A stretch of 64,000 nt of DNA, taken from contig NZ_CP102287.1 in assembly GCF_025151385.1 (NCBI RefSeq), forward strand, positions 434,001 through 498,000, read 5' to 3'. This DNA comes from Hoylesella buccalis ATCC 35310. GTDB taxonomy: Bacteria > Bacteroidota > Bacteroidia > Bacteroidales > Bacteroidaceae. This document shows, in pieces, positions 53,346-57,560 of this stretch (positions are counted from its first letter, which is position 1; each line of letters starts with the position of its first letter). The notes beneath the pieces were generated by a model, which worked only from the letters and a program-made list of their open reading frames with translations, was not told where the DNA came from and did no database searches. Both the position numbers and the translations under genes were made by a program.

Positions 53346-54233
53346 ATGGATATCAATAAGATGAAAGGCGATTATGACCGCTATGAGGTGGCGCAAGCCG
53401 ACACGCTGTTAAACTGGTTGCTGAATCATGTCACCAACCTTAGCAAGAGTAAAATCAAAGCGACGTTGGCTGGAAAAGGCATCATCGTGAATGGCAAGTG
53501 CATCACGCAGTTTGACTTTCCGCTTGAGGCGGGAATGAAAATTGCGGTGAGCAAGTCTAAAAAAAACACCAACTTCAAAAACCGCTATTTGAAGATTGTC
53601 TACGAAGATCGTTATTTGGTTGTGATTGAAAAGCACGTTGGAATCCTGTCCATGGCTGCGGGTCATTCTTCATTAAACGTGAAAAGGGTTCTTGATGATT
53701 ATTTTAGAACCAGTAAACAGAAATGCACGGCACACGTTGTGCATCGGTTGGATCGAGAAACCAGTGGTCTGATGATTTACGCCAAGGATATGGCGACAGA
53801 ACAAGAGCTGGAACACAACTGGCACGACATTGTGTACGATCGCCGTTATGTGGCGGTGGTGTCCGGCGAAATGGAAGTCGACGAAGGGGTCATTACGAGT
53901 TGGTTGAAAGACAACAAGGCCTACGTTACCTATTCAAGTCCGGTAGATAATGGCGGAAAGTTTGCCATTACCCATTTTCATACCTTAGATCGAACCACCG
54001 AACATTCGCTGGTAGAGTATCGCTTGGAAACGGGACGAAAGAATCAGATACGCGTCCATTCTGCCGATATAGGGCATCCTGTGTGTGGAGATCTCAAGTA
54101 TGGCAATGGTGACAATCCCCTTGATCGGCTTTGTCTGCATGCCTACATGCTCTGTTTTACCCATCCAGTAACTCGTCGGCCAATGGAATTTGAAACGCAG
54201 ATTCCTCCTGCTTTCAGGAAGTTGTTTAAATAA
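53346..54233 (+). CDS. RluA-family pseudouridine synthase
   Basis: This 295-residue enzyme isomerises uridine in rRNA or tRNA. An S4 RNA-binding domain (residues 20-75, LSKSKIKATLAGKGIIVNGKCITQFDFPLEAGMKI) is followed by the catalytic core with HRLDRETSGL (Asp136). The family members differ in target and the sequence does not settle which one this is. An in-frame ATG at 53361 is an alternative start. It is preceded by a 129-base gap, in which I see no feature. Confidence 0.9.
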   Translation: MDINKMKGDYDRYEVAQADTLLNWLLNHVTNLSKSKIKATLAGKGIIVNGKCITQFDFPLEAGMKIAVSKSKKNTNFKNRYLKIVYEDRYLVVIEKHVGILSMAAGHSSLNVKRVLDDYFRTSKQKCTAHVVHRLDRETSGLMIYAKDMATEQELEHNWHDIVYDRRYVAVVSGEMEVDEGVITSWLKDNKAYVTYSSPVDNGGKFAITHFHTLDRTTEHSLVEYRLETGRKNQIRVHSADIGHPVCGDLKYGNGDNPLDRLCLHAYMLCFTHPVTRRPMEFETQIPPAFRKLFK

Positions 54234-54920: not shown

Positions 54921-55085
54921 TTAGGAAATATTTATTTTGCAGGCAAAGGAACACATGTTAAAGCAAGCAATGTGCTTAATCTTTTCGGTAAATTCTTTAT
55001 TAAATCTAAAAGAGGAACCGATGCCAGCACCAATATAGAGGTACAAGGGATTTGGTTGTTACATACATCTGTTGACACTATTTGA
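54921..55085 (+). pseudogene. possible gene remnant before the IS1634-family insertion
   Basis: After a stop at 54918-54920, this frame is open for 54 codons (LGNIYFAGKGTHVKASNVLN...) and ends with TGA 55083-55085, followed at once by a hairpin (GAGGCAG/CTGCCTC) that looks like a terminator. There is no in-frame ATG or GTG near its start. It may be the tail of a decayed gene, or chance. I do not recognise the sequence. Confidence 0.25.
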
Positions 55086-55115
55086 GGCAGAATATTTTTT
55101 CGCTGCCTCCATTTT
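55024..55115. repeat. 92-bp direct repeat, left copy
   Basis: This sequence is repeated without a mismatch at 56788-56879, directly outside the two ends of the IS1634-family element. It contains the GAGGCAG/CTGCCTC hairpin. IS1634-type elements are known to make long, variable direct repeats of their target, which fits. Confidence 0.95.
55083..55115 (+). terminator. terminator-like hairpin inside the 92-bp repeat
   Basis: GAGGCAG (about 55084-55090) and CTGCCTC (about 55103-55109) form a 7-bp stem with a 12-base AT-rich loop, followed by CATTTT. It is duplicated with the 92-bp repeat (again near 56848-56879). Confidence 0.5.
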
Positions 55116-56787
55116 CCTGACTTCGTCATCGTGTCACCCAAAAATCTTCGTCAAAGAGTTTAGCTATTCTCTGATGTCTTGCCATCAGCATAGTCTGCGT
55201 ATAAACCTCCTTGTTCAGAGGTAGCTTGATTTGTATCGTTGTAATGGTCTTTGCCAATGCAAGCACCTTGTCTATGCTCATCTTAATCTCTGAGACTTTC
55301 AACATACGCTCCAATTCCTTGTATACTTTCAAAGCCACGAAGCAGATGCATATATGAGCCTCGATTCGTTTGCGCGTAAAGTGAAACATGGGACGTATCT
55401 CTATCTTTGATTTGGCTATGCGGAAGGCTCGTTCCACATGCCAAAGGTTGTGATATGCCGTGTATATGTCCTGTATTGGTATATCCGTATTGGTGAGATA
55501 TCCCTTTAGGCCGTCCCATTTGGAGTCGTCGGCAACACGGTCATAATTGATGGCGACTTTCACTTCACCATCCATGGATAAGAACTTATTGTAACCTCTC
55601 TTGTTGATGTTGCCTTTCGTGAGCGCACCATGCTTGTAAGCCTTTTCCAACCTGCGTATTCCCTTTTCCCGGTTATAGGCATCTTTCTTAGCACGGTCAT
55701 CTGTATAGCCGACCAAGAGACGACGTCCGCCTCCTTTGTCATATTCAACCATCTGGCAGTCGCGCTTGGGCTGTTCCAGTATCCAGTTCTTGACCTCTTG
55801 ACTTTCATTCTTTATCTTCGCACCTATTATATACTTGTAGCCGTGCGATTCAAGTTCCGCTATGTTGGCATTGTTCATCAGACCAGAATCTGCCACTACA
55901 ACGAAGTTTTCCAATCCGTATTTGCTTACAAACTCGTTTATCGTCGGCAGCATCGTATGACCCTCATATTTGTTGCCTTCATGGATGCAATAGGCAAGCG
56001 GATAGCCACCAAGGCTGACAAGCAGTCCAAGTATGATTTGAGGATTACTGTGACGTCCCTCTTTCGAGAAACCTGTCTTGCGTAATTCGTCCTCATAATC
56101 CGCTTCAAAGTAAAGTGTGGTAACATCATAGAATAACACACCGATATTTCCACCGAACAGTTTAGCTGTATGTTGCACGCTTATGTCCTGTACGATTTCG
56201 TGCTGATGGTCGCTAAGCTTGTCAAGATAGCGATAGATTTTTGAGAGATCCATATCTTCGTCAAAGTGGTTTTTAAGGTATTCCACCGTGGCAGCTTTGC
56301 TTGTTGGATATGCCAAACGAGCCTTAACAAGCTTGCGGAATACATCATCGTCAATCCGATTGAAACCAATCCTGTCAAACGTGCGGTCTAATATCAAGTC
56401 GCATCCGTTGAGAAAGATATTGCTGACATTGGACAGGACACGGCGGACTTCTTCACGCTCATGGTCACAGGCCTCACGTTCCTCGCCGAATAGATCAAGC
56501 TGGGGCTGGCGGCGTGAATTCTCTCTGGAAATCCATTCTTTTGCTTCAATGACAAGATTTTCAACCTCACCTTCATTATAGGCTACTCCAATTGTGGCAA
56601 GTTCCTTCATTTTGCCTCCAATTTTCTCAACAACGATAACTCCGATATTGCCAGATGGATATTTCTTTTTGCGGACAAACATAGTTAAAATATCTTTCGT
56701 GTCACCCAATATTAGATGACACAAAGATACAAAATAGTGTTTATCAACCAGTTATAAAATACATGTTTTTTGAGTGACGAAGTCAGG
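55116..56787. mobile_element. IS1634-family insertion sequence, 1672 bp
   Basis: The ends are 13-bp perfect inverted repeats, CCTGACTTCGTCA at 55116-55128 and its complement at 56775-56787. One intact transposase gene on the minus strand fills the element. A perfect 92-bp direct repeat flanks it, consistent with the long target duplications of this family. The intact gene and the perfect repeats suggest a recent insertion. Confidence 0.92.
55126..56682 (-). CDS. IS1634-family transposase
   Basis: This 518-residue DDE transposase shows the family's catalytic residues: Asp186 (FYDVTTLYF), Asp265 (VVADSGLM) and Glu417 (WHVERAFRIAK). The C-terminal part has the AHICICFVALKVYKELE pattern found in the family. 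I chose ATG 56682 (MFVRKKKYPSGNIG) over an in-frame ATG at 56724, because the longer start adds 14 residues that run through the sub-terminal DNA of the element. The stop codon at 55126-55128 lies within the left inverted repeat. Confidence 0.93.
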   Translation of the reverse strand: MFVRKKKYPSGNIGVIVVEKIGGKMKELATIGVAYNEGEVENLVIEAKEWISRENSRRQPQLDLFGEEREACDHEREEVRRVLSNVSNIFLNGCDLILDRTFDRIGFNRIDDDVFRKLVKARLAYPTSKAATVEYLKNHFDEDMDLSKIYRYLDKLSDHQHEIVQDISVQHTAKLFGGNIGVLFYDVTTLYFEADYEDELRKTGFSKEGRHSNPQIILGLLVSLGGYPLAYCIHEGNKYEGHTMLPTINEFVSKYGLENFVVVADSGLMNNANIAELESHGYKYIIGAKIKNESQEVKNWILEQPKRDCQMVEYDKGGGRRLLVGYTDDRAKKDAYNREKGIRRLEKAYKHGALTKGNINKRGYNKFLSMDGEVKVAINYDRVADDSKWDGLKGYLTNTDIPIQDIYTAYHNLWHVERAFRIAKSKIEIRPMFHFTRKRIEAHICICFVALKVYKELERMLKVSEIKMSIDKVLALAKTITTIQIKLPLNKEVYTQTMLMARHQRIAKLFDEDFWVTR

Positions 56788-56879
56788 CCAGCACCAATAT
56801 AGAGGTACAAGGGATTTGGTTGTTACATACATCTGTTGACACTATTTGAGGCAGAATATTTTTTCGCTGCCTCCATTTT
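56788..56879. repeat. 92-bp direct repeat, right copy
   Basis: This is identical to 55024-55115 over all 92 bases and begins at the base after the right inverted repeat of the IS1634-family element. Confidence 0.95.
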
Positions 56880-57552: not shown

Positions 57553-57560
57553 TAACTTTG
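57553..57560 (+). promoter_or_regulatory. -7 promoter element of the nuo operon
   Basis: TAACTTTG is an exact TAnnTTTG element 66 bases before the nuoA ATG at 57627. A TTG at 57528-57530 could serve as the -33 element, although the 22-base spacing is slightly long. Confidence 0.65.

Follow-up and report, generated by a model that had tools for sequence, protein, structure and literature searches.

Long direct repeats of variable length flank an IS1634-family insertion sequence of Hoylesella buccalis and share an A-rich motif at both borders

INTRODUCTION

How does an insertion sequence come to lie between two identical blocks of 92 bases? Nearly all DDE transposases produce a target duplication of fixed length, since both element ends attack the same target site and the stagger between the two cuts is constant. 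The window analyzed here, a 64,000-nucleotide stretch of the Hoylesella buccalis ATCC 35310 genome, contains such an element, and the locus raises the questions of whether its flanking repeats were made on insertion and, if so, by what kind of strand transfer.

According to the passages of PMC2266710 that deal with the IS1634 family, its members usually generate AT-rich duplications of 5–6 bp, whereas IS1549 and IS1634 themselves generate long and variable direct repeats (together 8–514 bp), in agreement with what the initial annotation of this locus had said of elements of this type. This rule-breaking branch has been on record since 1998–1999, and according to the same paper, of 2008, nobody had yet put forward a mechanism for its long repeats. 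Further literature background was taken from PMC8024623, PMC8944449, PMC11004492, PMC1798306, PMC11448079, PMC11708052 and PMC3281130.

MATERIALS AND METHODS

Relatives of the element were collected from the genus (150 genomes, 16 with a match), the order (392 genomes, 52 with a match), 84,980 species genomes (a scan of which gave 503 relatives, with 80 kept), plasmid records (22 of 122 with a match) and viral contigs (one locus); 16 genomes were searched for all copies. A repeat was recorded if it was at least 12 bp long and flush with both element ends. For empty sites, the joined flanks with one repeat copy were compared with 149 related genomes, and for two sites also with eight close genomes. 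Joints were read starting at the element end and moving away from the element, so that positions were fixed by the ends and not by the measured repeat length. A 12-position matrix built from one border was scored on the other border, relative to all positions of that strand up to 200 bp away.

RESULTS

Structure of the element

The insertion sequence occupies positions 55116..56787 on the minus strand. It is bounded by 13-bp perfect inverted ends, and the genome holds three more copies that are identical to it over the full length. The left end, CCTGACTTCGTCA, lies at 55116..55128 on the plus strand, and the same 13 bases lie on the minus strand at 56775..56787. With 1,672 bp, the element falls inside the range of the IS1634 family (1500–2000 bp in the table of PMC2266710), and CCTGACTT at both ends conforms to the family end consensus C-----YT given in the same source. 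The two unstranded blocks that flank it, at 55024..55115 and 56788..56879, are identical over all 92 bases, exactly as initially annotated. Leftward of the repeat, one extra base matches; it coincides with the base that closes the right end, so that the repeat measures 92 bp with these ends. A perfect match of this length flush with both ends excludes chance. Within 3 kb around the element, two other direct-repeat families were found, each of 18 nt and 83–89% alike, and a search for RNA families between 54700 and 57300 found none.

The transposase frame (55126..56724, minus strand) encodes 532 amino acids from a TTG codon; an internal ATG (MFVRKK), which is the start in relatives of the transposase, would give 518 amino acids from 56682. 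The frame matches NCBIfam NF033559 with 388.4 bits (cutoff 100) and Pfam DDE_Tnp_1 with E = 1.7e-12, so that the family had been called correctly from the outset. Residues D200, D279 and E431, which we take to be the DDE triad, are invariant in a 7-sequence transposase alignment. Y424, L427, E431 and K438 are likewise invariant in alignment A1; by our own placing, they would form an incomplete YREK motif with L at the R position, as fits the IS1634 family. The IS4 family of the YREK group, which also has a DDE transposase and belongs to the same wider group, is matched only weakly by the window transposase (NF033592, 25.2 bits, below the cutoff of 115), and differs in its ~10-bp repeats and full YREK motif, as described in the relevant part of PMC2266710. 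ISPfe2 (Paracoccus), ISGka5 (Geobacillus) and an element of Acidiphilium match the same family-level transposase model as the window element, but the repeats published for them are 6 bp long.

Copies in the same genome

The genome of the strain consists of one contig of 3,307,707 bases, in which eight matches to the element resolved into six copies. All six have perfect end-flush repeats, of 92, 75, 78, 70, 118 and 367 bp; comparison of these copies, which the initial annotation had proposed as a check, thus yielded long duplications in each case (70–367 bp) and no short one. These lengths lie outside the usual 5–6 bp and resemble the documented exception of IS1549 and IS1634, for which long repeats that differ between copies of one element are the characteristic behavior; the present element has six lengths in six copies. 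No difference separates the four copies that hold no nested element over their 1,672 bp, which supports the earlier view that the insertion is recent. GC skew, computed for 26 stretches of this genome, switches sign at about 0.78 and 2.45 Mb, where the origin and terminus probably lie.

The two remaining copies, L012 and L013 (G000:C1:296742-299785 and 3146185-3149224), carry a 1,359-bp element nested at the same place, and have different flanks and repeats of 118 and 367 bp, respectively. The nested element encodes an IS4-family transposase (NF033592, 245.9 bits) and has its own 9-bp duplication, as measured in the 118-bp copy. Aligned over 3,040 and 3,038 bases, the two composites differ by two single-base gaps and zero mismatches. 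The nested insertion splits the IS1634-family transposase after approximately residue 424, before E431, and yet each composite has its own long repeat; to judge from these sequences, the composite must, for at least one of the two copies, have been moved in trans.

Repeat lengths among relatives

An end-flush repeat was found at 60 of the 140 surveyed loci (54 perfect, 6 at 98.9–99.9% identity), a fraction that is not a rate, as among the 140 some loci lie at contig ends, some places occur more than once, and some loci have wrong ends (L009 and L011, for instance, which are copies of the own genome counted correctly elsewhere). Fifty-four of the 60 are of Bacteroidota type, one of them on a viral contig, and 50 of these are perfect; their repeats range from 19 to 789 bp, with a median of 88 and quartiles of 63 and 150. 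The other six were found in Aliarcobacter (680 bp), M. riyadhense (608 bp), Rhodococcus (147, 93 and 47 bp) and Actinomyces (56 bp). Counted by genome, repeats flank 6/6 copies in the own genome, 3/3 in G551, 3/3 in G549 (one with a one-base length difference), 2/3 in G010 and 0/4 in G506, as well as 6 of the 7 copies with recognized ends in G344 and 8 of the 11 with good ends in G548, where two of the other three lie beside N gaps. By these counts, the long-repeat trait is general, not universal.

Repeat length showed no helical phasing with a period of 10, 10.5, 11 or 11.5 bp (P = 0.16–0.37; 50 lengths up to 250 bp), and the repeats have a slightly lower G+C content than their flanks (–0.043, s.e. 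0.010). At four loci (L107, L111, L123 and L069), the repeat copies agree at both borders or in parts, with internal differences of tens to hundreds of bases and with N gaps near three of the four loci. On a Ligilactobacillus plasmid (NZ_CP089852.1, L227), an IS1634-family element with an apparent 14-bp repeat and one diverged end adjoins an annotated erm(C) gene.

Empty sites

A single-copy empty counterpart was found for five of the six sites in the own genome. The strongest case is the 367-bp repeat, for which the own genome itself offers two counterparts, both of them paralogous relaxase loci: the joined flanks align ungapped over 1167/1167 bases at both places (99.5% and 97.1%), and over 1167/1167 bases in G029 as well (95.7%). 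At this site the element has broken a MobA-type relaxase gene in two, and each half retains a portion of one and the same nuclease domain, as a duplication demands. The surrounding region near 3.14 Mb (L292) is mobilizable, with VapE-like, Toprim and MobA-type relaxase genes, and the related relaxase loci lie at 1.18 and 2.27 Mb. Empty counterparts were also obtained for the 118-bp site (918/918 bases, 95.0%), the 70-bp site (869/870 bases, 93.1%) and the 75-bp site (751/875 bases with one gap, 94.9%). The weakest is that of the 78-bp site (878 bases with three gaps, 88.9%), where a search with the repeat only aligned just 50 of 78 bases. As the empty sites hold one copy, the repeats were made on insertion and are true target duplications, which the initial annotation had considered likely.

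These comparisons bear directly on the possibility that the repeats are pre-existing tandem repeats, later duplications or assembly errors, unrelated to transposition. Such cases may occur among the relatives, since one copy in G344 (L212) lies among arrayed tandem units of ~66 bp and N gaps lie beside the element in several scaffolds. However, this explanation is refuted for the five sites with single-copy counterparts, the end-flush repeats at 60 of the 140 loci speak against it, and the own genome is assembled as one 3.3-Mb contig; as a general account, it is exceedingly improbable. For L212 itself (G344:C1:1121348), the array makes the element's own repeat unreadable.

The site in the window is the exception among the six, in that the proposed search for a single-copy empty site returned no intact one. 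Two relatives, G046 and G029, have a longer version of the locus, 84% identical over 2.4 kb; of this version, stretches of ~0.8 and ~0.3 kb have been lost from the window genome between 53346–54233 and the nuoA-like gene at 57558. A 99-base remnant of ~80% identity is found at 54969–55067 of the window, and the element landed inside it. In G046 and G029 no intact empty site was present, and in G046 there was no second copy of the 92-bp sequence, the halves of which occur there once each, ~286 bp apart. The ~0.3-kb loss lies inside the 92-bp sequence, and since it is present in both copies, it is older than the insertion.

A shared motif at both borders

We examined the 108 joints of the 54 Bacteroidota-type insertions with repeats. 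Position +1 is A in 45/54 right and 44/54 left joints (89/108 in total), position +2 is A or G in 94/108, and A occupies positions +3, +4 and +5 in 65, 57 and 58 joints, respectively, where the background frequency of A is 30%. Both borders thus display the same preference, 5'-A-R-A-A-A-R outward from the element, on opposite strands. A occurs at both +1 positions in 36/54 insertions, and the exact sequence AAAAAG in 8 right and 4 left joints. The +1 base belongs to the target and not to the element, because in these repeat-bearing copies the same base is found at the far repeat border too. The matrix built from right joints gave left joints an average percentile of 0.872 (z = 9.5; 23/54 above 0.95), and that from left joints gave right joints one of 0.862 (z = 9.2; 27/54 above 0.95). 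The preference was the same for repeats of <60, 60–100 and >100 bp. In the six insertions from other phyla, which are often GC-rich, A is found at +1 in 6/12 joints and the motif is weak or missing.

With the identical preference at each border, the repeat is bounded by two A-tract sites, one per strand, that are related by a dyad. This favors two strand transfers that would be separately placed with free spacing and followed by fill-in. A one-ended or rolling process, in which one end is placed precisely, copying runs a variable distance and the other border is arbitrary, would account for lengths that vary from 19 to 789 bp; it predicts the motif at one border, however, whereas both borders show it at near-equal strength, and neither inverted end is truncated in any of the events counted. 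We therefore regard a one-ended process as very unlikely. Attraction of the element to transcription terminators or hairpins that set the repeat was suggested by a hairpin with a T-run near the left joint in 3/6 own insertions, but the 45 nt before the cut in the 108 joints fold no more stably than motif-matched local controls (–6.11 versus –5.97 kcal/mol, P = 0.33), and there is hardly any likelihood left in this idea.

Copies without repeats

Fifty-three loci with good ends lacked a repeat. Removal of five duplicates, seven loci with imperfect or cut repeats and three with N gaps left 38, of which 25 have 600 bp on both sides and not even a short repeat. Position +1 is A in 59/71 joints of the 38 loci and in 39/50 joints of the 25 full-flank loci, although in repeat-less copies this base could be target or element. 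The motif score exceeded that of their own local controls, with z = 12.4 for the 38 loci and 9.5 for the 25.

One repeat-less copy, L038 (P. bivia-type, G010:C3:1278763), has flanks that relatives carry in their ICE at a distance of ~12.7 kb from each other and in opposite orientation. Judged by this comparison, L038 is a breakpoint marker of a rearranged ICE, and it is the sole explained case among the 25 full-flank loci. If repeat-less copies came from recombination among the copies now present, hybrid repeats between copies of one genome would be expected, and none were observed in six genomes. An empty-site search for the repeat-less copies of G506 returned partial flanks only. A second search, which covered 1,967/6,000 bases and thereby three of twelve repeat-less sites plus the greater part of one more, gave nothing decisive.

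Distribution in the transposase tree

In a tree of 53 transposases, the long-repeat members fall in a group of 43 tips (support 0.936), at the base of which stands a Lactobacillus relative with 14 bp. This group includes seven actinomycete tips, with members of 47–608 bp, L221 at 5 bp, and L223 without an assigned length. That the Bacteroidota tips are all long is partly by choice, as they were drawn from repeat-positive loci. The remaining ten tips (support 0.975) comprise Alphaproteobacteria including the Acidiphilium type, Streptomyces, cyanobacteria, Caballeronia and Segatella copri; no long repeats were found among the relatives sampled in this group, one of which shows 5 bp, and 6-bp repeats are on record for published elements of this sort. 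The window transposase groups with the actinomycete long-repeat relatives, in a tree from which the original IS1549 and IS1634 sequences are absent.

Relation to replication

Published work bears on a link with replication: IS1634-family transposases bind the sliding clamp, and stronger binding raises transposition (PMC4549789). In the window transposase, the residues QLDLF at 75–79 (codons at 56488..56502, minus strand) conform to the consensus of clamp-binding peptides given in PMC4549789 and PMC5371812, and are a putative site here. Insertion might accordingly be coupled to the replication fork via the beta sliding clamp, the interval being single-stranded or gapped fork DNA and not a free choice of duplex sites; in G344, all eight matches (one of them partial) are oriented with the local GC skew. 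In the own genome, however, three of six copies lie each way relative to the replichores deduced from the 26 GC-skew stretches, QLDLF is not conserved in every long-repeat relative, and the clamp-binding Acidiphilium element has 6-base repeats, as reported in the part of PMC4549789 concerned with it. In four genomes, 15/20 copies show the strand bias by local skew, a figure that we do not rely on since several of the skews are near zero. Fork coupling in place of free site choice seems rather unlikely to us, and is compatible with separately sited strand transfers as their physical cause.

DISCUSSION

The window element is a further case of the kind known from IS1549 of Mycobacterium smegmatis and IS1634 of Mycoplasma mycoides, and in this respect is ordinary. 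It shares with them the family and the long variable direct repeats, a likeness by description; the host phylum differs, and six copies in one genome, empty sites and a motif shared by two borders are what is available here. In the open literature, subscription papers and ISfinder being outside the scope, we found no report of a motif common to both borders or of the long-repeat trait in Bacteroidota; novelty is unproven.

We consider it likely that this is an active IS1634-family element, the long repeats of which are true target duplications resulting from two separately sited strand transfers and fill-in, a mechanism deduced from sequence comparison. In this process, each element end would undergo strand transfer at an A-tract site chosen separately from that of the other end, the two sites lying on opposite strands with tens to hundreds of bp between them, and the reaction would not be confined to a single site cut with a fixed stagger. 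Strand displacement by host polymerases would next duplicate the stretch between the nicks, so that either side of the element ends up with a copy, whereas sites in another relation, or recombining copies, would give rearrangements without repeats. A stronger form of this proposal, to which we give an even chance, is that in this branch of the IS1634 family no common target site constrains the ends: each would pick its own A-tract, on opposite strands and 20 to 800 bp apart, so that site spacing and not enzyme geometry sets the duplication length, and other arrangements of the sites would lead to deletions or inversions. Against a simple version of the model stand the 25 full-flank repeat-less copies, the weak motif in other phyla, L221 with its 5 bp and the lack of an intact empty site for the window.

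The border motif recasts the old observation on IS1549 and IS1634 as a concrete, testable idea, namely that of two separate target choices. The window element type offers a well-behaved Bacteroidota model with many natural insertions and empty sites, and thereby a lever on a long-unexplained behavior. Tools that search for short duplications will miss such insertions. Excision by recombination between the 92-bp repeats is plausible, and long repeats of this kind may allow the exact removal of the element.
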